Shown here piece after piece: positions 6,101-34,435 of a stretch of DNA of 37,885 bases (its first letter is position 1; each line of letters starts with the position of its first letter). Below the pieces are notes generated by a model that saw only the letters and a program-made list of their open reading frames with translations, did not search any database and was not told where the DNA came from. This stretch comes from an uncultured bacterium (lineage in GTDB: Bacteria > Patescibacteriota > Microgenomatia > UBA1400 > UBA12108): NCBI GenBank assembly GCA_903945195.1, contig CAJAUT010000029.1, positions 1-37,885 of the forward strand. The letters are read 5' to 3'. A program made the position numbers and the translations under genes.

Positions 6101-9100
6101 GGCGCGGTAAACTGTGATATAACCTGAGTCACTTTCTGGATGTGAAGCTCTGAAACTAGGATTGGTTGGGAGGAGTTTCTGGATATGATCAACGTTGTAT
6201 GCATTCTTTTGTGCATCATTTAAATTTTCGATAGTTCTGTTTATCAGCGATTTTTTGATATTTCGCCATAATTCCTGGGTGTAGGCAACCTCTCTGAGGT
6301 CTTCCAACCATTTAACGTAAGTATCAATTTCACTTCTAAATGAGAAGTATTTATCACCTGGGAAGTCTTGATTTCCTCCTGGATAATATCCCCTTACATA
6401 GTTGTCATATTCTTCTAGTTTTCTATCAAATGAAGCTTCATATCCAGTCTTTGGATCTGATTTGTACTCTGGCCAATTTCTAGTTTCAGAGTTCTTAAGA
6501 CGCATGAGATTGGCCCATTGATCTTCTAGTAGGCGAGTGCTTAACTTTTTAACATAAGAACTATCAATGTTTATTTTAAGACCTTTTTTGACTACAACAT
6601 TTAATAGTTTGAGACTATCTATTTGTTGAGTAATTTCCTCTGCTGAAGGTATGCGATCTGGGTATGTACTATCTGGTTTTATGATCTCAGTTTCTAGTTT
6701 GACTATAAAAGCTACTGGGTCACTTGATTTTTTGTCATAGTCAGCGATTTGGCCAAAGATGTTCTTCCAGAAGGTAGTGCGGAAAGCAGTATCCTTGTTT
6801 TCAATCCAACCAGAGTATTTTTCCCATACCATGTCTATTGCGGCCTGGCTAAAGACAGGTTTAATGTCTTTCTTTTGGAGTTTTTGTTCAACCATATCAA
6901 TGAGTAGATTATTCACATCTTTTGGATGAATTTTCTGATCTGTAAGGAGAGAGGATAGGGTATCAGGGAAAGAAATATTTTGTTCTGCAATAATTGCGAG
7001 ACGTTGCTCGAGAGGGTTGTTTTGTAACTTTTGACCCGTAACCAAACTTGTTAGTGATTGACTTACGTTTTTGCCTGCATGGAGCGCTCCATTGATTGCA
7101 TTATTGAGCATGGCTGTACCTTGTGGATTGGCGATTATTCCCATATTCCAACCCATTATCCAGTCTAGGAATTGTTGTAATGGGGTCTTTGTATTTTGTA
7201 TAGTATTTGTGACTGGTGCACCTAATATCAAGTTGCTCAACTGATTGGTGAGACTCTCTGCTGTAGGATATCCTTTGTAGAAGGATTCGTTTGAGTCGAA
7301 CGCCAGGTCAAAGAATTTTTCGATCTCTGGATATAGAGGATTATCTCCAAAGAGCTCTTTGAGGGCCTCTTTGTTCCAATTGTTATCATTAACATTATCA
7401 AATGTCATCCCACCAAATTCTTCATAAAATGGTTTTTTACCTGTTAGCAATTCATAGGCAACTACCATAATTGCTCGATTGTCGTCTACTATAGTTGCTT
7501 CTCTTCCGAGAGTCTGATTTTTGGACGCATAGTCTGGTGTATATGCAATAAATTCACCATCTGGGTCTCTTGCTAGTGCGACACTTGGTGATAGTCCAAA
7601 ATCAATAATTATTGGTTGTCCATTTGGATCAATCCTGACGCTATTTGGCTTGAGATCGCAATGTACAACTGGGCGGGATTCGCCTGATTGATCTTCTATA
7701 GTTTGCGCATGAATACTGTCTACGGTAAGGGATACTGAGGAGAGAATATTGAAGATCTCGGCTTGTGTAAGAGGATTGCCAAATCTAGATTTTATGAGGA
7801 CGTATTCACCCAATTGCTGACCTGGAATGTAATCCATCACAAAATAACTGACTCCAGATTGTGTGAAAGCATCGTATGGTTTAGGGATATTTAGATTATT
7901 GATATTTGCGCTGAGTTTGGCATTTAGTCTAGCCTCTTCGATTGTGGCGTTGTGACCGAATATTTCTTTAGTGCTTAGATAAGATTCTGTTTGAGTAGAT
8001 TTTAGAATTACAGGTTTCATCAGGGTTTTGTCCCAGGCTAGTACCACATTTGCCATCCCACCCTCACCAAATTTTGCATCTAGGGTGATATATCTACTAT
8101 TTAATTCTTCATTGAAGCGGCTTGCAGGTAGACTTAGACTTGGATCATTATTTTCTATCAATTCATAGAATTCTTGATTTAATTTGTCTATTTCTTCTTG
8201 GAGCTGATAGAGATTCTCCCTCGCAATCGTCTCCCCAGTCATGAAACTAAAACTCTTCATCTCTGGATATATTTTTGAGAGATTAAGGATTTCGTTGAAG
8301 AAGAATATTTTCCTTGCTAGCTCTGATTGGACTGGGACTAATTGGATATCGTGCTGATAGGAGTTAGACTGGTTGATTAGAATCTTAGCAATACCAATCG
8401 GAATTTTGACGCTTAAGAACTCCGTGAGATCCTGTCTTGGGGCCAGAGGAACAGGGGAGTCTACCTGATCATCTGAGGATGACTCAACTAGGGAGAGCTC
8501 GTCAAATCCAGAGCCTAGGATTTCACCTCTACCTATTAGATCTCCTAGTCTTTGGTTGAGTTCAAGATAAAGATATCTGACGTAAGCGGTAACGCGTGAA
8601 GAGAGGGTAATTGGGCCGGAAGCGGTTTGGGCATCAGTTACGTACTCCGCAGCCTCCTTTAGGGCGTTTTCAAAAGAAGATGGATCGGTGGCTGCCACTG
8701 TGCCAGTGATTGGCAGAGATGCGATTAGTTTCTCAACTATTTCAGGCATATCAGATAGGCCCGGGATTACAATGGTTTGATCTCCACCCTGGATTGTTGA
8801 TCTACGGTCTTGTAGATAGGTGAGTGCTTTGCTTATAGCGCTGCGTGAGTAGGGGTAGGCGATAGGTTTGCCGCTGACTTCAGCGATCATGATATGGATC
8901 GCGCTTACGATACCGTTTTGGACATCCTGGTCATCAAAAGTGTGGGATTTGGCTAGTGCCAGTGACTGCTCTAGTTTGCCTAGATCTTTGTTGTTGTATC
9001 CGTCTACAAAGAGCTGTGCAATCTGTGGGACTACGACTGAACAGTCGGTGCAGCCGGGGGTCTTGGGGGTAAAGACAGTGTGTGTTATGCCCCTTGATAA

Positions 9101-15100: not shown

Positions 15101-18100
15101 AAAAACGAGGGTTTTAAAATCTGGTTCTGCAATGAGATCTAAGATTGGTCTACCTGCTAGATTTGCGATATTTGAGTATGTGATTTTACCTATTTTTGTA
15201 GGGGTAGTGGCGAGGAGTGGAATCGAATTAGATAGTTCTGCCAGGATAGATCTGACGGAATCAACTATTGGACTCGTAGTGGGTGGGAGAGTAGGGATCC
15301 GGCTTACTGGGGAGATAGCAGCGGGTGCTGCAACTGGTGCAGTTAAAGTAGGCTGAGCAGAACTTGCGATATATTTCTCTGTAGCTGCACGATATTGGCC
15401 AGGAGTATTATCGGCAATGGAGTTATTTCTAGCGTAGGTCATGAGGGTATCAGCTGGGCCAAAGGTATCTGGTGAAGTTAGGCGATTTGTGGGATTATTT
15501 AATTCTGCGAAGAAATCATCATATTTGGGGAAGTCTTCAGCGTCACGAGCATTTAAGGCTCTTTTTACTTCTATTAGTTCGTCACTTGAGAGTCCAAGGC
15601 GCTTGCCGATTGTTTCTGCCATTGCTAAGAGCTGATTGTTGGTAGATACAGCGCGACGATGAATTTCTTTGTACAGATCTTCGCCCTTTAGTGCTTCGCG
15701 ACTGCTACTCGTGCGTAGCATAGTTTCAAAACTGCTAGCCCTTTGGCTGAGCTCGGTTTTTAGCGCATTTAGTCGCCAGTTATCAATAGTGCCAAGATTT
15801 AATTTTTCTGGTAAAGAATCTAGTGCACTAAGAGCTTTCTTTGGAGCTGCACCTAGTGCACGCATTGTTTCGTCAAGTCGATCGGTCGCCATCTTGGTAT
15901 TTAGATTCTCAACGTAAAAATCTTTGTAGACATTGTCGGCTGTAAGATCTGTACGCTCAGTCTTGAGATAAAGATCGAACTCCTGGGCGAACTCTACCTT
16001 TGTTGGATCTAGTCTTGTTGCATTGTTTGGGTCAGCGGCGAGACGGTTCCTGCGCCACATTTGTTCGAAACTAACAGAGGTTGGGAGGGAAGATCCCTGG
16101 CCATCGGTAAACTGAGACCATCTGATATGCTCGTGATTGGCGGTGACTTTGAGATCTGCACCACGCTCACGGCCCATGTAGGCGATGAGGAGGTCTTGAG
16201 GCTTGTTGCCATCCTCACTGGCTAGGATAGATTGGGCTCTCCTGTTCCAATCTGCAGAGTCGTCGAGGCGTAGGCGATGTTCAAAATCTATTTTGCCGTC
16301 GATGACTAGGTATTCGATGAACTCTTCTACTGTTTCACCATTTGGTTTTTGGCCGTACTGAGTTACGAGGATTTTTTTGAATGGAACTCCTTTTTCATGC
16401 GCAGATCTGACCGATGCCTGGAGATCTGCCGCCATATCATTGTTTGTCCCTGCATAGACGATTGCTGAGGACATGTTGTTGTATTTGGTTTGACGATTAT
16501 CCATAAGTTGATCTGCTAGTCCCTCGCGAGTGGTAGAGGCGCCAAAGTTAGTAGGTCTTAGTGATTCTGCGTTTACTTTTTGGTTCTGATTGAGGAGGTT
16601 TAACGCCTCTTGTGGTGTAGCGTCTAGCCCCTTAACAGTATTTTTGAGATTGCCAAATTCATCCAACCTAGCATTTGTGACTTCATCGTAAAAATCCATG
16701 ACGTTCATTTGAGTGCCAGGTGGGGCAATTTTAATTTGAGTAAGATCTGGAAGAATTGTGATATCTACAATTTTTCCACCTAACATATTTTGACTTGCTG
16801 CGGCAAGCATCTTGCTACCCTTGTCGTAGAAAGATAATAATTGGGTTGTTTCTGGTAATCTCTCACCAGTTGAGGCACTGCCTTCGTAGAGAACTAGATC
16901 TCTATCTTCCTGGGCAAAATCAGTTCCAGGTCTACGAGCAAATTGGTTCCAGTCATCTTGGAGGGTGGCTTTGCGAAAATTGAGATCAGTAATGAGCGTC
17001 AATTCTTTTTTGATGGTACTACTTTGGGACGTGGCTATGAGTGCATCTAACTCTTTTATAGTATCTTCTAATTGTTTTATTTCAAGGTCATTTGTTGCTG
17101 GCCGACGGAGTTTTTCTATGAGTGAATCAAGTTTTTTACCCAAATCGGTCGTACGGCTTTTTGTTTTTAAGAGTGATTGATCAATTACATCTGCAAGTGA
17201 ATTGCCCTGAATACTAATATCTCTTGGGACATAATTGCCGTCTCCTACGCTTACCAATAAGGCCCTATGATCTTGTCCTAGCGATAGTTTGTTGATGATT
17301 TGACTGAAAAATCCCTGATGGGTAGAGGAGGCGTCTACACTGCGATAAGTATTGATAGCTTCATTACCATTCTTGAGACCTCCAAGTAGTTTGGGATTTT
17401 TGATCTTTGATAAGTCTATTCCACTGCCGCCCATTGCCATGTTCTTTTTGATACCATCACTTATTTCATCGATAATATAGATAAATTTGCCTTGTTCTCC
17501 TTGAGTAATTTGCTTCATCAAGAGTCCTTCAGCAGTTGGCTTGCCTTTACCCATTAGTCTGCTTAACCAAGTCGAATCTGGGGCTTCGTTGCCCGCTAGT
17601 CTTGTCCAGACTGCATTTGGTCTATCTGCGACAAATGAGATGTGAGTAGAACCTGGGAGATCAGTATTGGCTTTGAGTAGCCCTGCTACTTCATCTGCTG
17701 ACATGCGTCTAGCAAAGTTGGGATCAAAGTTGCCTTTGGAGAAATCGATTTCTAGGAAGCCTCTTTGGGAATCAATAAATATCCCTTTGGTATTCTGGCT
17801 GCCAAAGAATTGTATGCCTCCGGAAGTTAGCATCTGAGAATTGACATATTCAATGGCCTCGGTACTACCTTTAAATAGTGCCATACTCTTTGGTTCGGTG
17901 ACAGAGAGAATGCGAGTGATGGCGTCACTTTTGCCTGCGAGTGAGCCACCATTAGCAGTCTTTAATTGAGCAATCGGGTCTGAACTAAGTAAGGTCTGTA
18001 CCTGTTCTTCGTAGAGATGGTAGCCGACGGACTTCTCGAATTCGTCAAGGATACCATTGAAGGCTTCTGCCTTGGCTTTTACGACTGGATCGACGATGGC

Positions 18101-20998
18101 GACTGTTTCTACGCGAGTAATTTTGTTGCTTGATCTACCCACACTTGCTTGATCCCAGGCAGCTTCTACGGCATTTAGATTTGCGGCGTCCGAGTTGGTG
18201 CCCAGTCTTAGATCGTTATTGGTGTAGGCGGCATTTAGGTCACCAAGGGATTCGGTTAGGATCCGTGGAGGCAAATCGATCACTGGTGCTACGGCTCCAC
18301 TGGTAAGTGCAGGGGTGATTGGGAGCTCTGGTAGATCAGCGACATTGGCTAGTGCGGGTGTAGGTAGCGCTGCATCTACCTCTGTTCCCGCAACATGGAG
18401 GAGGGTGGCTGGGGGAACATCAACTGTTGGAAGTTTGGAATAAAGGAATTGACCACTGCGGTAATCAAATACTCCACCTACTATGTCAAATGCAAAGGCA
18501 CCGGCTGACATAATACAGTTGGCGGTAGTTGCATTCTCTCCTAAACAGCCTTCTTTGGCTTGATCAAGATCTGTAGCGGCATTAGCTACAGAAACTGCAG
18601 TATTGAGATATCTGGCTACTTGCATCTGCGAGGTGACACCTGAGGCAAAAGCGCTAGAAACATACTGCATGGTTCCAAGATTGGCCCAGGATAAGCCTGC
18701 ATAGAGGGCATCTCTCGTACAGTTTTCTGAGCCATCTAAACAAGTGACTGTAGCGTTACCTGTTTGATACATCGTAGAGATTGCACCAACTGAAGCTAGG
18801 GTAGAAGTGATCGCTGCACCTCCACCAGCGAGGATACCTGTAGTGGCTGTGACAGCTGGAAAGATCATGGTAGGAAGAGCAGATACTGCAGCACCTGCTG
18901 CTGTTACAGAGGTCCCTAGTTGAGTGGAGGCGGATAATTGTTCGACCGAGCGTGTAGGCATGTTGCATAACATCGCAGCACTCCTAGATTTGCCTTCCTG
19001 GCAAGCCTCTAGACTGGAATAACCTGTATATTGCCAAGCTTTTGAGGCTTTGTCAGGAGCAAAAGCTTCTACATAGCGATCAAACCCAGGTAGGATAGAG
19101 AGTCCGGTTTCTGCCGAGGTAAGACTAGTGTTACAGGCTTCATCACCTCCACAGATTGCATAGTTATTGAGATTGGTCTTCGCATAAGTTCTTTCTGGAT
19201 TGATCATGGATGCAAGTTCTGGAGTAAAGGCGGCCCCAGTTAATCCATTTGAAGCTGGTACGGCTTTTTCTAGAGTTGTAAGACTGGTATTTTGATCACT
19301 GGTAAGACAGACACATGATCCACCTCTACAGGTGAGAGTGGTACCTGCTGCACAGGAGCTCGGGTCTACCACAGGTGCCGGAGTAGTGTTGACCTGACAG
19401 CTACCCTTGAGCGACATCATGTTTTGCTTGCCACAGGAACCTGAGGAACATTCGGTATCTAGCTCGCACGAATCTCCATTGGTCTTGGAAAAAGGAGTAA
19501 CTGTGGAGATAGCTGCTGCAATATTTTTGATTGGAGGTTGATAATTTGGATTATCGATTAGATATTTGTTGATTGCGGTAGTTTTTGTCCCGTCGGTTGC
19601 AAAGTTGGTGATATTTTCTATGACACTGAGCTGAGTTGCATTTGGACGATTAATCTCGGTATAGGTATTTTGGGTGCTTACGATCTTGTTGGTATCTGCA
19701 TCAGTGTAGGTAGTTTTGTCTATTTGGACTGTTTCTGCTGTACCGCCTGCGCCACGACCAGCAGTTTTGAAAGTCTGACTTGTGGTTTTTTTGATGAGAG
19801 AAGTGGTATCTGCATCAAGTAGTTCTCCAGTTGCTGCGTCGCGGTAATAGGCAGTGGTATGAGTAATAAATCCTTCATCTACTTTTTCGAGCTGTGATTT
19901 TTGTTCAATGACATAAGACACTGATTGGGTGTCTACTACGGCGCCAGTTTGGGGATTTCGATAGGTGGTGGTAGCTGTATAAATAGTTTGTCCGTTTACG
20001 ACAGCTTCGGTATTAACTGTTTCTGCAGTACTGACCATGGTGATATTGTCTTGGCGTTTGGTAGTGAATGAAGCCTGATCTGTAGGACTAAAACCAGTAA
20101 GCAGGTCAGCGATATTTGAAACACTGTATTTGGCCTTGAGATCTTCTTCTGAGAGAGCCATATAATCGCTAGCTTTTCTACTGTCTAGGACGGCTGTGGT
20201 TAAATTATCGTTTTTAACTGTAAAGGTGCTAGCGACAGTTTCGGTGATAATTTTTTGCTGACAGGAGAGATCATCTGCTACACAAGTCTTTGCAGGATCT
20301 TTGGATTTGGCTACTTCTAGAAGATCGGCATCGGATAGAGTTGCCACTTTTTCGGCGATTTTTTGGTTCAAATTGTTGGAGGCATTGATTGTATCTTGAT
20401 TCGCGACGTTGAAACGCTCTCCATTTGGGGCACAGTAAGTACCAGAGATCGTGCCCTGACCATCCTTGCATGTTTCTCCATTTGTTTTGTCGATATAGGT
20501 GTCTGCAGCTGTTAACTGGTAGCCGTATCTCAGGGCTTCTGTGCCGTTGATTTCTGCGTACGCATCTGCCTGAATAGAGGCGGCTGTGACTACTTTGGGA
20601 GCTTCGACAACTGCTGCGGGAGGGGTGTAGACAGGATCACCTACTTCGTTGAAGATAATATCTTTTTTTGTAGCTGTTTTAACGACTGTGGGAGTAGCTA
20701 TCTTTGGTGTCTTAGTCGTGACTACAGGAGAATCTCCTTCGAGTAGAAATTTAGTTTTTACTACGGAGATCTGGGCTTTAGCAAATGGTGACCACATCAA
20801 TTTGCTGGTTGATTTTGAAAAGATTACTTGAGGAATATTGTTTGAAAAATTTGAGATTGTAGGAATTGTTTGGCCTGGGTAATCTAGGAGGTGGGTGGTG
20901 AGTGGTTTGAACTGAGTTGGAGCATAAATTTGAACGAAGAATAGACTAACAATCCCGATCGCGATGCCCACATAAAATTTGCTCAAATTTCTTTGCAT
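137..20998 (-). CDS. Giant multidomain kinase/phosphatase/protease-like secreted protein (6,953 aa)
   Basis: One uninterrupted frame of 6,953 codons. Domains in order (approximate residues): signal anchor 7-25; Cys-rich region with Tx(n)YxDxxTG-type beta repeats at 338-450 and many Cys pairs, 170-830; hydrophobic segments about 690-740; degenerate SecA-like ATPase region 985-1660; Pro/Ala-rich linkers from about 1870; three PRGVNLDTG modules (P2356, P3002, P3302); FHA-like beta domain 2480-2590; HEALH zinc site at H2771; PP2C phosphatase 3533-3830; three CxxC/helical modules (C3983, C5268, C5954); Ser/Thr kinases at about 4300-4594 and 5634-5921; ADP-ribosyltransferase-like stretch 4960-5095; second HExxH (HEIDH) at H6423. 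The start ATG follows a TTGACA/TACAGT promoter by 6 bases and has no good Shine-Dalgarno. The stop lies in the presumed IS end, so the protein may be truncated. The kinase and PP2C assignments are motif-based and firm. The overall function is unknown; an envelope-associated signalling or interaction protein is an inference. Confidence 0.9.
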   Translation of the reverse strand: MQRNLSKFYVGIAIGIVSLFFVQIYAPTQFKPLTTHLLDYPGQTIPTISNFSNNIPQVIFSKSTSKLMWSPFAKAQISVVKTKFLLEGDSPVVTTKTPKIATPTVVKTATKKDIIFNEVGDPVYTPPAAVVEAPKVVTAASIQADAYAEINGTEALRYGYQLTAADTYIDKTNGETCKDGQGTISGTYCAPNGERFNVANQDTINASNNLNQKIAEKVATLSDADLLEVAKSKDPAKTCVADDLSCQQKIITETVASTFTVKNDNLTTAVLDSRKASDYMALSEEDLKAKYSVSNIADLLTGFSPTDQASFTTKRQDNITMVSTAETVNTEAVVNGQTIYTATTTYRNPQTGAVVDTQSVSYVIEQKSQLEKVDEGFITHTTAYYRDAATGELLDADTTSLIKKTTSQTFKTAGRGAGGTAETVQIDKTTYTDADTNKIVSTQNTYTEINRPNATQLSVIENITNFATDGTKTTAINKYLIDNPNYQPPIKNIAAAISTVTPFSKTNGDSCELDTECSSGSCGKQNMMSLKGSCQVNTTPAPVVDPSSCAAGTTLTCRGGSCVCLTSDQNTSLTTLEKAVPASNGLTGAAFTPELASMINPERTYAKTNLNNYAICGGDEACNTSLTSAETGLSILPGFDRYVEAFAPDKASKAWQYTGYSSLEACQEGKSRSAAMLCNMPTRSVEQLSASTQLGTSVTAAGAAVSALPTMIFPAVTATTGILAGGGAAITSTLASVGAISTMYQTGNATVTCLDGSENCTRDALYAGLSWANLGTMQYVSSAFASGVTSQMQVARYLNTAVSVANAATDLDQAKEGCLGENATTANCIMSAGAFAFDIVGGVFDYRSGQFLYSKLPTVDVPPATLLHVAGTEVDAALPTPALANVADLPELPITPALTSGAVAPVIDLPPRILTESLGDLNAAYTNNDLRLGTNSDAANLNAVEAAWDQASVGRSSNKITRVETVAIVDPVVKAKAEAFNGILDEFEKSVGYHLYEEQVQTLLSSDPIAQLKTANGGSLAGKSDAITRILSVTEPKSMALFKGSTEAIEYVNSQMLTSGGIQFFGSQNTKGIFIDSQRGFLEIDFSKGNFDPNFARRMSADEVAGLLKANTDLPGSTHISFVADRPNAVWTRLAGNEAPDSTWLSRLMGKGKPTAEGLLMKQITQGEQGKFIYIIDEISDGIKKNMAMGGSGIDLSKIKNPKLLGGLKNGNEAINTYRSVDASSTHQGFFSQIINKLSLGQDHRALLVSVGDGNYVPRDISIQGNSLADVIDQSLLKTKSRTTDLGKKLDSLIEKLRRPATNDLEIKQLEDTIKELDALIATSQSSTIKKELTLITDLNFRKATLQDDWNQFARRPGTDFAQEDRDLVLYEGSASTGERLPETTQLLSFYDKGSKMLAAASQNMLGGKIVDITILPDLTQIKIAPPGTQMNVMDFYDEVTNARLDEFGNLKNTVKGLDATPQEALNLLNQNQKVNAESLRPTNFGASTTREGLADQLMDNRQTKYNNMSSAIVYAGTNNDMAADLQASVRSAHEKGVPFKKILVTQYGQKPNGETVEEFIEYLVIDGKIDFEHRLRLDDSADWNRRAQSILASEDGNKPQDLLIAYMGRERGADLKVTANHEHIRWSQFTDGQGSSLPTSVSFEQMWRRNRLAADPNNATRLDPTKVEFAQEFDLYLKTERTDLTADNVYKDFYVENLNTKMATDRLDETMRALGAAPKKALSALDSLPEKLNLGTIDNWRLNALKTELSQRASSFETMLRTSSSREALKGEDLYKEIHRRAVSTNNQLLAMAETIGKRLGLSSDELIEVKRALNARDAEDFPKYDDFFAELNNPTNRLTSPDTFGPADTLMTYARNNSIADNTPGQYRAATEKYIASSAQPTLTAPVAAPAAISPVSRIPTLPPTTSPIVDSVRSILAELSNSIPLLATTPTKIGKITYSNIANLAGRPILDLIAEPDFKTLVFISNNDKVVVITRELDGTLNVYDGVNLTRIYNPNTVLSYLPSSSNVISIELNEGVVDKSSYIKARGVAKSNETRVPSGMALPDSRFTVSVAEGVADTIAALFNPDESTDIKKSSELPDFLNDPNFGSVIYQDSFGTVTKIFIDEFGVLQFSQYDRNEEVATTRPFDSESDLKLIPNPDEIDSIIYNGKNITLADPITFNTPSDVADLLVNPGDDITFVLETGDFISIQNTNGALSYVIFNEIQVIAAGKKPLKQTPIVVSDLEKILPNKIMVKMIMFNLATLPLDSYQISNMRKVPTPTLANEAVQAGADLGDVINGLPPAEDLTVDSSIQPFLDFWQVDLPQAVRSLGSSVLSSMVTNFTTPGEEIGLLLSDQLANRQEGLFKQSILSLPRGVNLDTGRFSQGAWTSSFIFTRTPWHEMNRIISDLRTTNLSMEEAIARVEALELSDETKLKIIAELKRTYEPGIITPDAIEIDNQGAQPDDAPSPSSAPAIDPAPTEPNPAQPANTSSAVAQSEDIIAIPAGDISYLSSRGFGLENMGEDSLILRGNLHGNVPEEWTLLIYNQSILEDMTIILNGVERVIPAGSDLELQAGDNITLGNSTMTFYQIAKATRGYDIELSVTTKDGLLSLSEEEMLNMLNQTYFGSNPIYLDHFTPSFPDDFVAIHDAISHIRDCQLGNCSRAETAVLDDRARKMFTSKELTTLAENELLALASRTIYIQGFVNPVDSARGRRQFTKIANLFNRKLEELKIDEAFSVENLRPINTGDMTMSGQTLGTQNSFTHALQANVEILQYLPLSEQITIAAHEALHQIQSFINDNYDKQQPDSTYVEIFTEWYTRKYLSPGSSLYKDRIVYSTGVKKIDAALGYIKRTLGQAKHDEALRLFEDTAFNSDFDNLRSWFADNKLAPLTTIFGNTSDYHYAKNEYDYEYTTFMSFKNAIIQVINPVIIDPPFKRRKAAAIARANTTSNSSTTLDNLWKYLVEQITLYPSTTTINETTLPAWVSETITSGQEIGLSMSGRIAASQEKKFRLARLSFPRGVNLDTGRFSQTTWFSSLLFTNTPWHQMNNILITLRQNNINLDEAIKRIEALDLQDETKAVIITALRRTYKQVVTSPVLEAPVINAPTPDAPAPTPKSKRELLAESPVISQTNFGIDLSKLLINGESFIDHLNKGNIITLTINSVNLKRPRTADSKIKFEKIGNQYFVTKGVNVQNSRSFNLVINNFPASGFLDEGDYSLRVTNGAGNAVLPATDLANLVIASTPNTDILVTPEELPTSEPLLDRIFLILPLRVRNLLTPVFTFMDTNPSVWEELGIGLSGKLGTKQEGLFDLNDLILPRGVNLDTGEFSQSAWSTALFTRNTPWNQMNNILSSLKANQISIDEAIKRVEALDLQDETKRIIITALKSKSQPIAPRALTPIILPTAQSNAVSNIVQLTNGSVTLDIDLSMPINVNYGAKWENSTWNGNWFGYDSKPKSPYKTSLQLQTDISSYRNTLQGTVARARQGKQKNIQAVFSITFTTPAGELVTRALDINNSTTVTAKPIIITPTIATPIKPSVSPTTQDNSALTGPGTVMDAKYARADHGGVIQDAVKTTTITSKDTGETFGVSIVADGVSGGTASRDVPGYGEAVARLTDVITSDPNGLITPVVERDLVAYKEGRMTFSQYAAKIQNVFASIEKLARNINNSTGLDLWIGTTLNFVFHDHATNILYVQSLGDSPIFVLRNNKLAMIGPNRIKTAQGIKANVELDPRYNFTLSPINSNDEDIQSTTRQPRQISGYENNNTVAFVAEYQLEPGDIVVNMSDGIIKQAWDPDSNTYDWKTILTFFANNSSLTPATFEKSVIDRSIKSAKEALDDLSIATHYAKTVKPSSNTPIPPGPDKLVSQPQTNNPDINYQPYVFKKMPSRGEILKLAVKLMQNSITLKGKIIFMSEGKIYLELNSIKDLTEAKLSSALEKLSNDSRNGTQFVIYHTSAISPNNIGNINIDFSQIDKLDVSILSLILSRGITHTVFTPKTPGCTDCSVVVPQIAQLFVDGYNNKDLGKLEQSLALAKSHTFDDQDVQNGIVSAIHIMIAEVSGKPIAYPYSRSAISKALTYLQDRRSTIQGGDQTIVIPGLSDMPEIVEKLIASLPITGTVAATDPSSFENALKEAAEYVTDAQTASGPITLSSRVTAYVRYLYLELNQRLGDLIGRGEILGSGFDELSLVESSSDDQVDSPVPLAPRQDLTEFLSVKIPIGIAKILINQSNSYQHDIQLVPVQSELARKIFFFNEILNLSKIYPEMKSFSFMTGETIARENLYQLQEEIDKLNQEFYELIENNDPSLSLPASRFNEELNSRYITLDAKFGEGGMANVVLAWDKTLMKPVILKSTQTESYLSTKEIFGHNATIEEARLNAKLSANINNLNIPKPYDAFTQSGVSYFVMDYIPGQQLGEYVLIKSRFGNPLTQAEIFNILSSVSLTVDSIHAQTIEDQSGESRPVVHCDLKPNSVRIDPNGQPIIIDFGLSPSVALARDPDGEFIAYTPDYASKNQTLGREATIVDDNRAIMVVAYELLTGKKPFYEEFGGMTFDNVNDNNWNKEALKELFGDNPLYPEIEKFFDLAFDSNESFYKGYPTAESLTNQLSNLILGAPVTNTIQNTKTPLQQFLDWIMGWNMGIIANPQGTAMLNNAINGALHAGKNVSQSLTSLVTGQKLQNNPLEQRLAIIAEQNISFPDTLSSLLTDQKIHPKDVNNLLIDMVEQKLQKKDIKPVFSQAAIDMVWEKYSGWIENKDTAFRTTFWKNIFGQIADYDKKSSDPVAFIVKLETEIIKPDSTYPDRIPSAEEITQQIDSLKLLNVVVKKGLKINIDSSYVKKLSTRLLEDQWANLMRLKNSETRNWPEYKSDPKTGYEASFDRKLEEYDNYVRGYYPGGNQDFPGDKYFSFRSEIDTYVKWLEDLREVAYTQELWRNIKKSLINRTIENLNDAQKNAYNVDHIQKLLPTNPSFRASHPESDSGYITVYRAVTDISEPERQRAATFRPEAASYTDDQIDQITEWILANQNKLDIEAMLKRHNTGEKKYNIPDTVLSFSTSRSSVEQTSQSSGFGEHLIVARIPVSYLFDVNNSIRSGSQINLNDNEMALIGRLKPEWIVSIDGESYTPSVATVTTTPVITTPTITSPAVAEQITTPNITPTYPSDYIDDGVITITDESQYVTDNFANLNIAGIESKIHQLVIGQDGNTTLIVTANEFIYNDPELIISVTRNGRNITFAGLSDVEIPLQIGDILNIPLADGQYSQITYMGTETFTDSNEDIHVAPIFTLVLTGCSSCGTIIPQTIARALAAQTETAIDQVIADHKGLHTYEDEHLQTAVEAVLQALKARITNESIDYEASMNAIDATRTLIKAYGTIEYGSNSLVLPKSIKVLADVLTTLPVRGTIAAKDVASHLAALDRLEAVMAVGQVESSKSDPITILSRQLDNWGYFINRKWGDLTGRGNQFVSNPEVLIDEITNDKAWLAEITKDDLIDPGKTYDDLLTTNDDTAATNDLGEITRDTSSISVAPINPVVKITKASVSVGRKLIQGDPIAKLLKYDFQSSGYEILMNKKSINSVNQIMIPPVKSPLARRLFVMEEIRDKFELYSNLESITIDSITINRANFEELENSISVLLGKKRESYGNDVELDESQSSTDQMLQNRYIISSTPYGSGGIGQVYLGWDIHLAKPIIIKTTTKNDSINRQLLFEEAKVLSSFYVNNFSRPYAIFEEADQSYFVMEYIPGPTLETYQRVREALGDPIEIDEIIDIMHELASRIDYIHSKTIDGKTLVHADIKPNNIIYNFVKGKMIYDFGISNIALLRTLKEEVYNKLKYRGTPSYFAPSQNRSGTFKQEPRHDNRALIIIAYNQLTGLSPFTGNTTDEIFENVFSGKWDKQPLLNAIRSKYSPVRQQVIMDFFDSVLRDNDAIFEQYPTATSLTARLTELLQLETSNVPVSNPWLLNRGLSITNAVTADNMFVGCSSCAVRIPNHAESAVSIMEEIINGNINVALSKIRSAEFYLTDHTYDSPIIQQSWKLVFATLRRLATNYDIDIAQAEKLLSELRDLAKDYPTSNTPANSLVIANMPGLISLPQAIQNLIDAVPVEGSKTEGQIEPLNQAVDEVGQYLDSIESRLPTPLFTRLITRPIYNLILNLNQRWGTFIGKGNENQKLLTSPTNTQEPALSPEILYPEPTRLPLESIKNLLSPFSDWLDSKSSLLDSYLQNRYKPTGTTGEYISKLNSVVEIVNAQNQKDFTIQSPLSEIADEANQVLENEFVIDIELTDGRTLSQIKTDHPAQIIEEIFSAPKLIFNTSGKRVSIDEYIQDRYRELIARGVKISIEYLSPQDAIDKSRYTGDKLNLNEGIISGLNSLNVKIPTIKITTPEGFEFYTPIVNDPITLKQSSAYGMFSYGLDSSHILTRGRLALKASALYDVDSPNNLKLLASLTTTLHEIDHAIYNTIKSSHISAIKAQRNDLLVQTDDIIRTAILLLTQKGQTDLPGFRDSIKAQLYRKNTDEDWNRLISNLDKTEINIIKLAYGENSQEHLQYLDLIKQKEELNASYEKMLFQFENLSPIINEGLSTRAEVAFLNIQKYHLSSTGLSSADLIKLFDFAILQTTILRNASNPSLAIYSVGYDLITDPNDTAVLASADIYLSDLTSKYLQDNSSLFLAAMQYNINKAIDIDQMLNPDLNESERIAENLNISKLTLKNEDIFRVVNQANLPGLMTAAKDYEDAEANTKAEIIKDLESQITADGSGDNLSAWKNATENQQQYFEILVSYVHTIMPLKSITENILNIRYDFAAELGKLSEYINQTKIDHTTSPAIVAAAFPALTSVGTSIGQSILSAITPYIAPLLPNLPILIKNVNLWAIGLRTGIPNFSYPNWLKSALPQNFNFIPFGMSFSFPQISTSPDATPDEYYSALRGLKKQAMDNPVEFEERRQELNLKKSKEAMDKIMSGEMDNLTSAEAFDTIHKIFSQGV
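1310..1900 (-). other. Second metallopeptidase-like region (HEIDH)
   Basis: TTLHEIDHAIYNTI gives H6423, E6424 and H6427 in a helix. An NEGLSTRAEVAF segment about 125 residues later could carry a third ligand. No family assigned. The arrangement resembles gluzincin-like folds, which is inference. Confidence 0.4.
2578..3147 (-). repeat. CxxC/helical module, copy C
   Basis: Residues about 5951-6140. VGCSSCAVRIP (C5954, C5957), helical core, VPVEGS, and end LNQRWGTFIGKGN. It is not followed by a kinase but by the second metallopeptidase-like region. Confidence 0.75.
3238..4100 (-). other. Hanks-type Ser/Thr kinase domain 2
   Basis: Residues about 5634-5921. GSGGIGQV loop, IIIK lysine K5668, HADIKPNNI with D5768, YDFG with D5786, then GTPSYFAP and QLTGLSPF. 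HAD replaces HRD. Other catalytic residues are kept. The kinase 1 / kinase 2 likeness and the shared flanking module suggest internal duplication. Confidence 0.85.
4675..5206 (-). repeat. CxxC/helical module, copy B
   Basis: Residues about 5264-5441. GCSSCGTIIPQ (C5268, C5271), helical core, LPVRGTIAA, and end RKWGDLTGRGN. It precedes kinase 2 exactly as copy A precedes kinase 1. Confidence 0.75.
5710..6125 (-). other. ADP-ribosyltransferase-like stretch (tentative)
   Basis: Residues about 4960-5095 read VYRAV...LSFSTSR...EHLIVARIP...NDNEMALIG, in the order R, STS, E expected for R-S-E clade ADP-ribosyltransferases. The ExE motif is only partly met, so this is a weak, motif-level suggestion. 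Confidence 0.3.
7216..8102 (-). other. Hanks-type Ser/Thr kinase domain 1
   Basis: Residues about 4300-4594. Glycine loop GEGGMANV, VILK lysine K4333, catalytic loop HCDLKPNSV with D4448, IDFG with D4466, and a downstream TPDYAS / ELLTGKKPF lobe. The catalytic Lys, Asp and Asn are present. HCD replaces HRD, so the activation-loop arginine contact is missing. Probably active. Confidence 0.85.
8518..9065 (-). repeat. CxxC/helical module, copy A
   Basis: Residues about 3979-4160. Starts GCTDC (C3983, C3986), continues with predicted helices and LP.xGT, and ends LNQRLGDLIGRG. It precedes kinase 1. The CxxC could form a disulfide or bind metal. Family not recognised. Confidence 0.75.
9508..10402 (-). 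other. PP2C-type Ser/Thr protein phosphatase domain
   Basis: Residues about 3533-3830. All main PPM/PP2C motifs are present in order: VADGVSGG with metal-binding D3577, GTTL, SLGDSP, MSDGI and the final DDLS (D3820, D3821). The aspartates needed for the two-metal centre appear to be kept, so activity is likely. In bacteria this family dephosphorylates proteins modified by Hanks-type kinases, two of which lie downstream in the same chain. Confidence 0.85.
10883..11176 (-). repeat. PRGVNLDTG module, copy 3
   Basis: Residues about 3275-3372: EELGIGLSGKLGTKQ...PRGVNLDTGEFSQ...TPWNQMN...EAIKRVEALDLQDETK. The helical half matches copy 2 best. A beta-rich domain separates it from the PP2C. Confidence 0.85.
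11770..12080 (-). repeat. PRGVNLDTG module, copy 2
   Basis: Residues about 2973-3076: QEIGLSMSGRIAASQ...PRGVNLDTGRFSQ...TPWHQMN...EAIKRIEALDLQDETK. It shares 39 identical bases with copy 1 (here 11957-11995) and its helical half is close to copy 3. Confidence 0.85.
12590..12960 (-). other. Metallopeptidase-like HExxH region (HEALH)
   Basis: ITIAAHEALHQIQSF places H2771, E2772 and H2775 in a zincin-type helix. An acidic EIFTEW about 20 residues on could provide the third zinc ligand. Family unknown. The site looks intact, so a working protease or a metal-binding scaffold are both possible. Confidence 0.5.
13240..13560 (-). other. FHA-like beta domain
   Basis: Residues about 2480-2590. The segment LNGVERVIPAG...LQAGDNITLGNSTMTF matches the C-terminal half of FHA domains (strand, NG turn, L.xGD.I.LG, final strand). 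FHA domains bind phosphothreonine, which would fit the kinases in the same chain. The N-terminal GR..S signature is weak, so phosphopeptide binding is unproven. Confidence 0.4.
13714..14016 (-). repeat. PRGVNLDTG module, copy 1
   Basis: About 100 residues (2328-2428): EEIGLLLS...PRGVNLDTGRFSQ...TPWHEMN...EAIARVEALELSDETK...ELKRTY. I do not recognise the family. The second half looks like two helices. A 39-base stretch (13895-13933) is identical to the one in copy 2. Confidence 0.85.
16019..18046 (-). other. Degenerate SecA-like ATPase region
   Basis: Residues about 985-1660. YHLYEEQVQ...IAQLKTANGG resembles SecA's RPYDVQ...IAEMKTGEGKT. A P-loop-compatible GGSLAGKS with K1023 follows, then IIDEISDG near 1180 (compare the SecA DEVD region) and GRERGADLKV near 1606 (compare GRGTDIKLG). 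The order and spacing are SecA-like, but the motifs are altered. It could be a distant SecA-derived domain without translocase activity; the family call needs profile comparison. Confidence 0.45.
18500..20490 (-). other. Cys-rich exported N-terminal region of the giant protein
   Basis: Residues about 170-830 contain at least eight Cys pairs or clusters, for example CELDTECSSGSC near 509 and CRGGSCVC near 553. This pattern is typical of disulfide-bonded extracellular domains. Three beta-type repeats (TxYxDxxTGxxVDTQS-like) precede them. Together with the N-terminal signal anchor this argues that the region is outside the cytoplasm. Hydrophobic Ala/Gly-rich segments near 690-740 could re-enter the membrane. 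Confidence 0.6.
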
Positions 20999-21145: not shown

Positions 21146-22183
21146 ATGAAACTAGGATTGTCACCAATGGATGGAGTTACGGACGCAGCTATGCGGTACA
21201 TGGTCGCAAAGTATGGTCATCCCGATTACCTGTTTACAGAATTTGTCTCGGTCGATGCGCTGCATCATGCTACGGGAGAACGTAGGGAGCGACTACTTAA
21301 AACATTTGTGAAGGCGAGAGATGTAGGACATTGGCTGCAAAGTTCCGATCACTCGCCTATAATCTCGCAAGGATCGGAACTAAGGGAAATCGCCCAGATC
21401 TTTGGACACAATATAGAATATTTTAAAGAAGCTGCAGAGCTAATAGAATCACTTGGGTTTGACGGTATAGACATAAACATGGGCTGTCCTATGCACAAGG
21501 TGGAGGACCAGGGGAGTGGGGCAGGGCTCATCCGCACACCAGAGATAGCAAAAGAGATAGTACTAGCTGTCAAGTCAGCTACCAAGCTACCTGTGTCTGT
21601 AAAAACGAGGATAGGAGTGGATCGCGACATTGCAGAAGAATGGATGGAGCAGCTCATGGAAGTAAAGCCAGCATTTATATCTTTGCATGGACGTACCCTG
21701 CGCCAGCTTTACTCAGGTAGTGCTGACTGGGAGGCTATAGGGAGGGCTGCTAGGGTGGTGCACAAGCATGGAGGAATCATCTTTGGCAATGGAGATGTAG
21801 AGTCTATAGTGGACGCCCAGGCCAAGGCTGCAAAATATGGTGTTGACGGGATACTCATAGGTAGATCTGCAGAGGGGAATCCGGGGATATTTAGCGAGCT
21901 GCAAAGTTCCGAACACTCGCTAACGCAAGGTTCGGAACTGTGGGTGCAGAGACAAATTCAGAGACTGATTGAACATGCTCAGGTTTTTGAAAAAATATTT
22001 AAACCCCAGATAGAAAAAGAAGGGGACTATAGGTGGTTTATGCCGATGCGCAAACATTTGGCCTGGTACTGCAAAGGTTTTGAGGGGGCGGTAGAGATGA
22101 GAGCGAAACTTATGTTGACTAATTCGGTTTCAGAAGTTGAACAGATCGTTTCTTCTCTGCGAGATTTTTTGCCGCAAGTTTGA
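21146..22183 (+). CDS. dus: tRNA-dihydrouridine synthase, DusB-like
   Basis: FMN-dependent reduction of uridines in the tRNA D-loop. Dus signatures occur in order: LSPMDGVTD at the start, DINMGCP with catalytic C114, GSGAGL, VSVKTRIG, SLHGRT, IFGNGDV and GILIGR. Its 345 residues are slightly longer than usual, owing to two short in-frame insertions, LQSSDHSPIISQGSEL (64-79) and LQSSEHSLTQGSEL (252-265). Each is encoded by a palindromic DNA element. The first falls just before the conserved AQIFG strand and the second after the GNPGIF segment, both outside the catalytic motifs, so activity is probably kept. The gene is divergent from the giant gene (147 bases between starts). Its 3' end overlaps the continued frame of the convergent GGDEF-like gene. 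The exact Dus subfamily is uncertain. Confidence 0.95.
   Translation: MKLGLSPMDGVTDAAMRYMVAKYGHPDYLFTEFVSVDALHHATGERRERLLKTFVKARDVGHWLQSSDHSPIISQGSELREIAQIFGHNIEYFKEAAELIESLGFDGIDINMGCPMHKVEDQGSGAGLIRTPEIAKEIVLAVKSATKLPVSVKTRIGVDRDIAEEWMEQLMEVKPAFISLHGRTLRQLYSGSADWEAIGRAARVVHKHGGIIFGNGDVESIVDAQAKAAKYGVDGILIGRSAEGNPGIFSELQSSEHSLTQGSELWVQRQIQRLIEHAQVFEKIFKPQIEKEGDYRWFMPMRKHLAWYCKGFEGAVEMRAKLMLTNSVSEVEQIVSSLRDFLPQV
21334..21381 (+). repeat. Palindromic element 1 inserted in frame in dus
   Basis: It starts GCTGCAAAGTTCCGATCACT and carries perfect 10-base arms AGTTCCGATC (21341-21350) and GATCGGAACT (21372-21381). It encodes LQSSDHSPIISQGSEL. It matches element 2 outside a variable centre. Confidence 0.8.
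21898..21939 (+). repeat. Palindromic element 2 inserted in frame in dus
   Basis: Same start GCTGCAAAGTTCCGA and same reading frame as element 1. Its arms AGTTCCGAAC (21905-21914) and GTTCGGAACT (21930-21939) differ from element 1 at one position on each side in a compensating way (T/A changed to A/T), so the palindrome is preserved. It encodes LQSSEHSLTQGSEL. Confidence 0.8.
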
Positions 22184-33275: not shown

Positions 33276-33360
33276 TTACTTCTCTACTTCTACACCCATA
33301 CTGCGAGCAGTACCGGCCACGGATTTCATGGCGGACTCTAGTGAGGTAGTGTTTAGATCG
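33276..33360 (-). pseudogene. rplK: Detached duplicate of the rplK 3' end
   Basis: On the reverse strand this reads DLNTTSLESAMKSVAGTARS and continues to the stop, nearly the same as the end of the true rplK (34007-34090). From the stop inward, 62 of 63 bases match before the copies diverge. No start or promoter, so it is not expressed as a protein. The two copies bracket the mntA-hepT pair as direct repeats. Confidence 0.85.
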
Positions 33361-33376
33361 CATGAATTGTTACCCG

Positions 33377-33385
33377 TGCTATACT
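33377..33385 (+). promoter_or_regulatory. Extended -10 of mntA-hepT, leaderless geometry
   Basis: TGCTATACT ends 6 bases before the ATG at 33392. Longer readings of the gene from 33362 would start upstream of this element. Confidence 0.55.
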
Positions 33386-33391
33386 AAAAAT

Positions 33392-33667
33392 ATGAAGTAT
33401 ATACCGCGCATTACTGCAATTTTGAAGAAATACGGAGTCATCGAGGCCGCTATTTTTGGGAGTGTGGCAAGGGGTGAAGCGAAGCTGGGGAGTGACTTGG
33501 ATCTGATGATTCAGATGGGACCAATGTTGAATTTGTTTGAATATGTCCAGATGAAGCAAGAATTAGAAGATGTCGTAGGGAAAAAAGTTGATTTGGTAAA
33601 TAAAAGCAAAATCAAACCAAGATTGAAATCATTTATTATGCAAGATTTGCGATATTTACCAGTATGA
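33392..33667 (+). CDS. mntA: MntA-type nucleotidyltransferase antitoxin
   Basis: 91 residues of the minimal nucleotidyltransferase family. IFGSVARGEA (G23, S24) and SDLDL (D35, D37) are the GSxxxG and DxD signature that binds ATP and metal. Characterised MntA antitoxins AMPylate the conserved tyrosine of HepT to silence it. The start at 33392 is preferred over 33362 because the promoter lies between them. Its TGA overlaps the hepT ATG (ATGA), the usual coupled arrangement. Insertion between duplicated rplK ends points to recent acquisition. Confidence 0.9.
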   Translation: MKYIPRITAILKKYGVIEAAIFGSVARGEAKLGSDLDLMIQMGPMLNLFEYVQMKQELEDVVGKKVDLVNKSKIKPRLKSFIMQDLRYLPV

Positions 33668-34005
33668 AGAAGCAGTCGACGGTTTACCTAGAGGATGTCT
33701 TGGAAGCGATTGAGAAGATTTTTGAATACGTAAATAAAGTCGATTACGAGGAATTCGAGAAAAATTCCGAAAAACAGGATGCAGTAATACGAAGATTTGA
33801 AATTATAGGAGAGGCATCACGGCGACTTGAAGCTGATTTTCGAGAGACATATAGTCAAATACCTTGGGCGCAAATGGTTGATTTTCGAAATGTATTGATC
33901 CATGGATATGATACTGTGGAGCTTGGGATTTTGTGGAAGGTTATCCATGATGGTGATCTGGAAAAAGCAAAGAAACAAATTGAAGAGCTATTGGCTAGTT
34001 TGTAA
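33664..34005 (+). CDS. hepT: HepT-type HEPN ribonuclease toxin
   Basis: 113 residues, HEPN (DUF86) family. The RX4HXY motif is complete in FRNVLIHGYD: R75, H80 and Y82. R and H form the RNase active site and Y82 is the residue AMPylated by MntA in studied systems. Length and helical layout are normal, so both toxin and antitoxin look intact. The stop lies one base before the convergent rplK stop (34007), with no terminator between. Confidence 0.92.
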   Translation: MKKQSTVYLEDVLEAIEKIFEYVNKVDYEEFEKNSEKQDAVIRRFEIIGEASRRLEADFRETYSQIPWAQMVDFRNVLIHGYDTVELGILWKVIHDGDLEKAKKQIEELLASL

Positions 34006-34006
34006 C

Positions 34007-34435
34007 TTACTTCTCTACTTCTACACCCATACTGCGAGCAGTGCCGGCCACGGATTTCATGGCGGACTCGATAGAAGTGGTGTTCATGTCAGGCAGCTTC
34101 TCGGTGGCGATCTTTTTGAGCTGAGCTTGTGAGAGCTTACCGACTTTGGTCTTGTTTGGTACGCCTGAACCAAGCTTGAGCTTGAGCTCTTGCTTGATCA
34201 TCTCAGAGACAGGAGGGAGTTTGATGACAAAGGTAAAGGTGCGATCTTCGTAGATTGTGATCTCAGCTGGAGTCTTTTGACCTTTTTTGTCTTGAGTAGC
34301 TTTGTTGTATTGGTTTACAAACTCCATGATGTTGACACCATGTTGTCCAAGAGCTGGTCCGATTGGAGGGGCAGGCGTAGCTGCACCACCCATAGGGAAG
34401 ACTTTAATAATTGTTTTGATCTTTTTCTTGGCCAT
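34007..34435 (-). CDS. rplK: 50S ribosomal protein L11
   Basis: 142 residues of usual length. N-terminal domain with GGAATPAPPIGPALGQHGVN, the thiostrepton/GTPase-centre loop, and a C-terminal rRNA-binding domain ending KSVAGTARSMGVEVEK. AAGGAA Shine-Dalgarno, 24 bases after nusG. Its last 25 or so codons exist a second time at 33276-33360, on the far side of mntA-hepT. In canonical order rplA should follow directly; here it is 2 kb away. Confidence 0.97.
   Translation of the reverse strand: MAKKKIKTIIKVFPMGGAATPAPPIGPALGQHGVNIMEFVNQYNKATQDKKGQKTPAEITIYEDRTFTFVIKLPPVSEMIKQELKLKLGSGVPNKTKVGKLSQAQLKKIATEKLPDMNTTSIESAMKSVAGTARSMGVEVEK

Follow-up and report, generated by a model that had tools for sequence, protein, structure and literature searches.

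The window analyzed in this study, i.e., the whole stretch of 37,885 nucleotides, carries a dus gene that hosts two short palindromic elements in one shared orientation and reading frame (Table 1). Both elements have 10-bp arms. Copy 1, AGTTCCGATC-ACTCGCCTATAATCTCGCAAG-GATCGGAACT, is a hairpin of 41 nt and encodes Q-SSDHSPIISQGSEL; copy 2, AGTTCCGAAC-ACTCGCTAACGCAAG-GTTCGGAACT, measures 35 nt, encodes Q-SSEHSLTQGSEL and has TGCA on either side, 45 nt apart. Once the common 5' flank CTGCAA is included, the elements span ~48 and ~42 nt. At the ninth pair, the two stems differ, with T-A in one and A-T in the other, i.e., the change in one arm is compensated in the opposite arm. Together with the preceding CAA, the left arm of copy 1 reads CAAAGTTCCGATC, to be compared with CAAAGTTACGATC next to a transposase gene of the same genome (see below). 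The pattern AGTTCCGAN{10,30}TCGGAACT matched twice in the window versus not at all in 100 shuffles, and DNA hairpin z-scores were -3.6 for copy 1 and -5.1 for copy 2.

An initial annotation had described the palindromes and their compensated difference exactly where we find them, and had read them either as being under constraint or as inserted ready-made. Selection for a hairpin function in dus need not follow from the compensation, since the two copies may descend from different source palindromes. Insertion as ready-made palindromes gains support from the many further copies, their covariation and the peptide-free orthologs described below. An alignment of Dus proteins, also proposed in the initial annotation, revealed that both peptides are missing from all aligned relatives. 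Compared with these proteins, site 2 represents an insertion. At site 1, the loop is already extended and variable in the Dus of this family, which means that the insert does not represent a clear gain of length at this site. A single-sequence structure prediction of Dus was unusable (mean pLDDT of 46). Furthermore, three Dus orthologs (L068, L086, and L062) carry other short inserts, e.g., CLPAGR and LPAQAG; these resemble yet another, unrelated type of palindromic insert in frame (CCTGCC..GGCAGG).

Elsewhere in the window (33276-34084), a HepT-like ribonuclease gene and its partner, probably a nucleotidyltransferase antitoxin gene, sit between two copies (78 bp, 92% identical) of the 3' end of rplK. 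This arrangement suggests that a toxin-antitoxin module was inserted at the rplK end and that the gene end was regenerated. More than half of the window is occupied by a single unbroken ORF, which gave no Pfam match in the 1,000-aa stretch scanned (17999-20998).

Table 1. Positions of features in the window and of the candidate transposase gene elsewhere in the genome
Feature	Position	Strand	Basis or remark
dus, tRNA-dihydrouridine synthase, 345 aa	21146..22183	+	ORF list; PF01207, E = 3.3e-59; solved Dus relatives (1vhn, 6ei9, others)
Putative REPIN copy 1, long-loop type: TGCAA 5' flank and hairpin (21341-21381)	21336..21382	+	insert ends approximate
Copy 1 left arm AGTTCCGATC, putative REP half, CAA before it	21341..21350	+	
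Copy 1 right arm GATCGGAACT, putative inverted REP half	21372..21381	+	
Putative REPIN copy 2, short-loop type: TGCAA 5' flank and hairpin (21905-21939)	21900..21940	+	
Copy 2 left arm AGTTCCGAAC	21905..21914	+	
Copy 2 right arm GTTCGGAACT	21930..21939	+	
HepT-like ribonuclease gene	33664..34005	+	PF01934
Probable nucleotidyltransferase antitoxin gene	33362..33667		
rplK	34007..34435	-	
Unbroken ORF, 6953 aa	137..20998	-	
Best candidate RAYT-like gene (L171/L212)	G000:C6:56620-57309		PF01797; NF047646 REP_Tyr_transpos, 2.8e-12; HFH and YIHRNP motifs

A dispersed hairpin family in protein-coding genes

The genome containing the window (G000; 1.05 Mb, 97.6% complete) was searched for further copies, as the initial annotation had suggested. 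The pattern GTTCCGAN{10,40}TCGGAAC, with AGTTCCGATCACTCGCC as the exact element ends, yielded 15 full palindromic copies versus none in a reversed control. The copies are dispersed over the genome, and in each of them the inverted halves form one imperfect hairpin. Twelve have cores of 41 or 35 nt with an interior of the CACTCG...GCAAGG type (slightly changed in L010 and L021); L014 is a 39-nt core variant, and L012 and L017 have a longer core of 50 nt. A 5' flank of (T/C)(G/A)CAA is nearly invariant across the copies. The inserted DNA comprises roughly 45 to 60 nt, with uncertain exact ends. Among 13 aligned copies, one stem pair is UA in eight, AU in three and CG in two and thus always paired, and a second is CG in 12 and UA in one (L014). 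Paired cells made up 98.9% of the stem alignment, and the covariation score was matched by 0 of 500 shuffles and by no slid register. Furthermore, nearly all of these copies share a bulged A and a C.A mismatch.

All 15 full copies lie within ORFs, not in the extragenic position after which REPs are named. According to Pfam, the hosts are a glycosyltransferase, an ATP-dependent DNA ligase, LeuRS, TatD, a nucleotidyltransferase, ValRS, a polysaccharide flippase-like protein, QueA, TGT, an aldolase/phosphoglycerate kinase (PGK), DnaX, Dus (twice) and two less characterized proteins. Ten copies share one frame and read SSDHSPKIAQGSEL or a variant of it, two long-loop copies read SSDL...RSEL, and the remaining three are antisense and use other open frames. 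Three of the six consensus frames are open, and the set of surviving copies is thus filtered for open frames. The predominant peptide, (Q)SSDHSPKIAQGSEL, is short, polar and linker-like, and in-frame copies would be translated as a nearly neutral tag of 15 to 20 amino acids that does not break the protein.

In the orthologs found in G001, G002, G003, and G005, the peptide is missing from LeuRS, ValRS, TatD, TGT, QueA, and the ligase. LeuRS of G000 reads MKGKQ-ESQSSDHSPKIAQGSELGGQ-VLSPMG versus MKGREVLSPMG in an ortholog of the same family, and PDB alignments place this gap between the conserved motifs R.KG and VL.P.GWDAFG. ValRS and TatD are ~17 amino acids longer than their orthologs of the same family. 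Copy number and orthologs together suggest that the element has been mobile.

Two other observations concern the host genes. The copy at L020 (G000:C16:~19570) lies where a DeoC/LacD-type aldolase and a phosphoglycerate kinase meet. These are encoded by separate, overlapping genes in G005 and by one ORF in G000, where a mobile hairpin may have fused the two genes. In addition, the ligase (L010) and ValRS (L015) of G000 as well as ValRS of G002 and G005 contain repetitive inserts like KSENQNIQ or SENQTIRKSE; these occur in several enzymes, are common to relatives, and form another class of coding repeat.

A second family of in-frame palindromes, GGGTCTGACCTTGAAGGA...AAGGTCAGACCC, encodes the peptide GSDLEGSAQPADSKAGRSDP and gave seven clearly palindromic pattern matches, with queA, fmt, a nucleotidyltransferase gene, and genes for membrane proteins among its hosts. 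One copy at a gene end supplies a stop codon.

Beyond G000, a scan of named genome contigs for the exact element gave four matches, none of them followed by the second arm. Viral contigs contained 30 left-arm matches, none palindromic, and no core of the second family. Across 374 genomes of the class, the palindrome search outside G000 returned scattered, chance-like matches, one or two per genome; the other multicopy genome is G003, of the same family, with a variant of 26 to 27 nt.

RAYT-like genes and their flanking repeats

Five Y1 transposase genes (PF01797) are present in G000, one for an IS200 TnpA (L168) and four ORFs resembling REP-associated tyrosine transposases (RAYT-like) of 219 to 258 amino acids with MPNHFH-type HUH and Y-I-H-x-NP motifs. 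With 38 to 58 bits (47 for the best candidate), the RAYT-like ORFs stay below the curated REP_Tyr_transpos cut-off of 80; their scores are still significant (1.8e-9 to 1.1e-15) and above the PF01797 cut-off.

The best candidate gene (Table 1) is flanked by CAAAGTTACGATC at 56588 (+) on its 5' side and, inverted, at 57305 (-) on its 3' side, and its ORF holds two more in-frame copies at 56811 and 57088. The upstream flank has the sequence TTTACAAAGTTACGATCTTTGCAA and the downstream flank, inverted, TTGCAAAGTTACGATCCTTGCAA; shuffled flanks yielded a REP match at a rate of about 1e-5 upstream and in 0 of 100,000 cases downstream. At the left end of the element (TGCAAAGTTCCGATC), 12 of the 13 bases of CAAAGTTNCGATC match both sides of the gene. 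The REP beside the gene reads GTTACGATC, one base off the GTTCCGA(T/A/C)C (GTTCCGATC) of the 15 full copies. Due to this difference, the gene at C6:56620-57309 may be a cousin of the true mobilizer rather than the mobilizer itself.

Overall, CAAAGTTACGATC occurs 11 times exactly in G000, with sites in fmt (a full inverted pair), dnaX, uvrA, folD, and glycosyltransferase-like ORFs besides the two in the RAYT ORF. Intermediate REPINs with a RAYT-type arm were found at L036 (GTTACGATCACTCGCC...GCGCAAGGATCGTAACT) and in fmt (L199). The former combines this arm with the interior of the dus elements (ACTCGCC...GCGCAAG) and thereby bridges both forms. UvrA with the REP is ~9 residues longer than a solved relative. 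The single short REP in folD adds no length compared with a solved FolD; hence, REPs are not clean insertions in every case.

A GTAG/CGTC tetranucleotide at the hairpin foot was not found in the aligned flanks of the dus-element family, where the foot is RCAA; CTAC adjoins the hairpins at two other RAYT genes, L169 and L170. These two genes also contain in-frame palindromes or repeats, namely, NLQGSSLKV, encoded by AACCTTCAAGGATCATCCTTGAAGGTT, and PTRLHLEGL, which occurs twice. The RAYT gene L172 (G000:C7:~6900-7800) has its own hairpin, ATCAAACTCCGGGAGTTTGAT, on both sides and once more downstream, and is followed by a divergent second RAYT ORF, of which about 160 amino acids lie in the locus. 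The second palindrome family resembles the flank of another RAYT gene, AGGTCTCACCTTGAAGG, in 15 of 17 bases, which suggests a link to that RAYT, weaker than the link of the first family.

RAYT homologs were detected in 28 of 53 sampled genomes of the order, and relatives of the host have genomes of 0.5 to 1.7 Mb. The closest RAYT of G003 is 54% identical to that at C6:56620-57309 and has GCAAAGATCCGTTCTTTGT on both sides in inverted orientation. Of 25 RAYT homologs analyzed, about 14 have inverted hairpins in their flanks that exceed the maximum of the shuffles. A RAYT is present in each of the nine genomes that carry either palindrome family, compared to 19 of the 44 others (Fisher P = 0.0016, uncorrected for relatedness). 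Palindromes of the relatives are also often in frame, with ArgRS-like, glycosyltransferase, PEPCK-like, and radical-SAM-like ORFs (named by sequence recognition) as hosts.

Origin of the elements and comparison with known systems

We consider it probable, at roughly 0.8, that the dus elements are copies of a REPIN, i.e., inverted pairs of REPs, or repetitive palindromic sequences (PMC3116915), that are non-autonomous relatives of the ends of a RAYT gene. The element is best read in this way because the same REP lies inverted on both sides of the RAYT gene and twice inside its ORF. According to this model, a hairpin would form on single-stranded DNA during replication, and a RAYT-like HUH/Y1 enzyme, for which G000:C6:56620-57309 is the candidate, would recognize the REP halves in trans, cut, and join a copy at another place. 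Coding DNA would not be avoided, and copies would persist where the frame is kept and the peptide is tolerated. Because of the missing GTAG/CGTC tag, the sites within genes and the scores below the NCBIfam cut-off, we say that the system works like REPIN-RAYT; most likely, it is a divergent variant of it. The odds appear even for a broader proposal, namely, that in this order of small genomes, probably Patescibacteria as judged from genome size and relatives, REPIN-RAYT systems now act mainly as parasites of protein-coding DNA, with several RAYTs per genome, each with its own hairpin family, and with in-frame copies in essential genes, family-specific peptides, entry into a RAYT gene, and the joined aldolase-PGK.

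An unlikely alternative is that the elements are MITEs of an ordinary DNA transposon or insertion sequence, with terminal inverted repeats AGTTCCGA and target duplications of 4 to 5 bp. Some copies indeed have short direct repeats 51 nt apart (GCAAA, GACA, and CACAA), but over all copies these are not significant as target-site duplications (P of about 0.11). A scan of the genome for the left end with three mismatches gave no longer element with these ends, which match the RAYT flanks instead.

The initial annotation had likened the palindromes to the Rickettsia palindromic elements (RPEs), in an apparently unrelated lineage. The likeness holds for the outcome, since RPEs are likewise inserted in frame as palindromes with a conserved peptide in unrelated genes (PMC10969869, PMC3733652), and the lineage appears to be a different one. 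The relation supported here is more specific and of the REPIN type, as the arms match the RAYT-flanking REP in all but one base. That our elements are RPEs proper, i.e., selfish coding palindromes, is quite unlikely: they are about 45 to 60 rather than about 150 nt long, their sequence appears unrelated to RPEs as these are described, the aligned flanks show no CGTC tag at the hairpin foot, and the genome here has a transposase gene that is flanked by the same repeat. CGTC REPs, with some RPEs among them, apparently lack a transposase (PMC3733652). If the broader proposal is true, coding palindromes such as those of Rickettsia would gain a suggested transposase-based mechanism. RPEs are not known to have a dedicated transposase or other mover.

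Covariation of the stem would also fit an RNA or DNA structure selected in each host gene, such as a regulatory hairpin or a bypassed or spliced insert. This is very unlikely given that the hosts are functionally unrelated, that orthologs do without the element, and that a search of Rfam returned one subthreshold chance match, outside the elements. Moreover, all copies are in frame and free of stops, as a skipped insert would not have to be. Chance, or a conserved protein motif whose codons happen to form a palindrome, is refuted by the copy number (15 versus 0) and by the same peptide occurring in unrelated enzymes and missing from their orthologs.

A genome that combines a hairpin family in frame in genes for tRNA synthetases, the clamp loader, a ligase, and glycolytic enzymes with a RAYT gene that is bounded by this hairpin and also contains it makes the origin of coding inserts testable, and its copies represent insertions that essential proteins naturally tolerate. 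It also calls for caution in annotation, as short lineage-specific peptides in such genomes may be mobile DNA and not adaptation. In-frame palindromes and REPINs as such are already known. In literature on intragenic REPIN/RAYT and on RAYT in Patescibacteria, covered mostly outside subscription journals, we did not find this case reported, i.e., an almost wholly protein-coding REPIN population in a small-genome lineage, probably Patescibacteria, whose RAYT gene is both flanked by the same REP and entered by it.

Among known systems, the IS200/IS605 family shares the HUH/Y1 chemistry of TnpA, but no palindrome was found in the flanks of the ordinary IS200 tnpA gene of G000. The REPIN/REP-RAYT systems of Pseudomonas fluorescens SBW25 and E. 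coli (PMC3116915, PMC8266576, PMC2817692) likewise have inverted REP pairs that fold into imperfect hairpins, a RAYT-like HUH/Y1 gene with cognate-like REPs at its flanks, and several RAYTs per genome that differ in REP type. They also share the recurring hairpin bulge or mismatch, and TnpA-REP of E. coli requires a stem bulge for its activity (PMC8266576). In contrast, the copies described here are almost all intragenic and in frame instead of extragenic, their number is low (about 15 to 30), the dus-element family lacks the GTAG/CGTC tag, and the RAYT resembles the curated model only distantly. The tag describes most, not all, REPs, and intragenic REPs are known, most of them in Opitutus terrae and Rickettsia conorii (PMC3733652). 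The intragenic GTAG REPs of O. terrae are comparable in that REPs or their dimers in ORFs add 20 to 30 amino acids, with some genes hit twice (PMC3733652); REPs there are mainly intergenic, whereas those in the 1-Mb genome studied here are nearly all intragenic.
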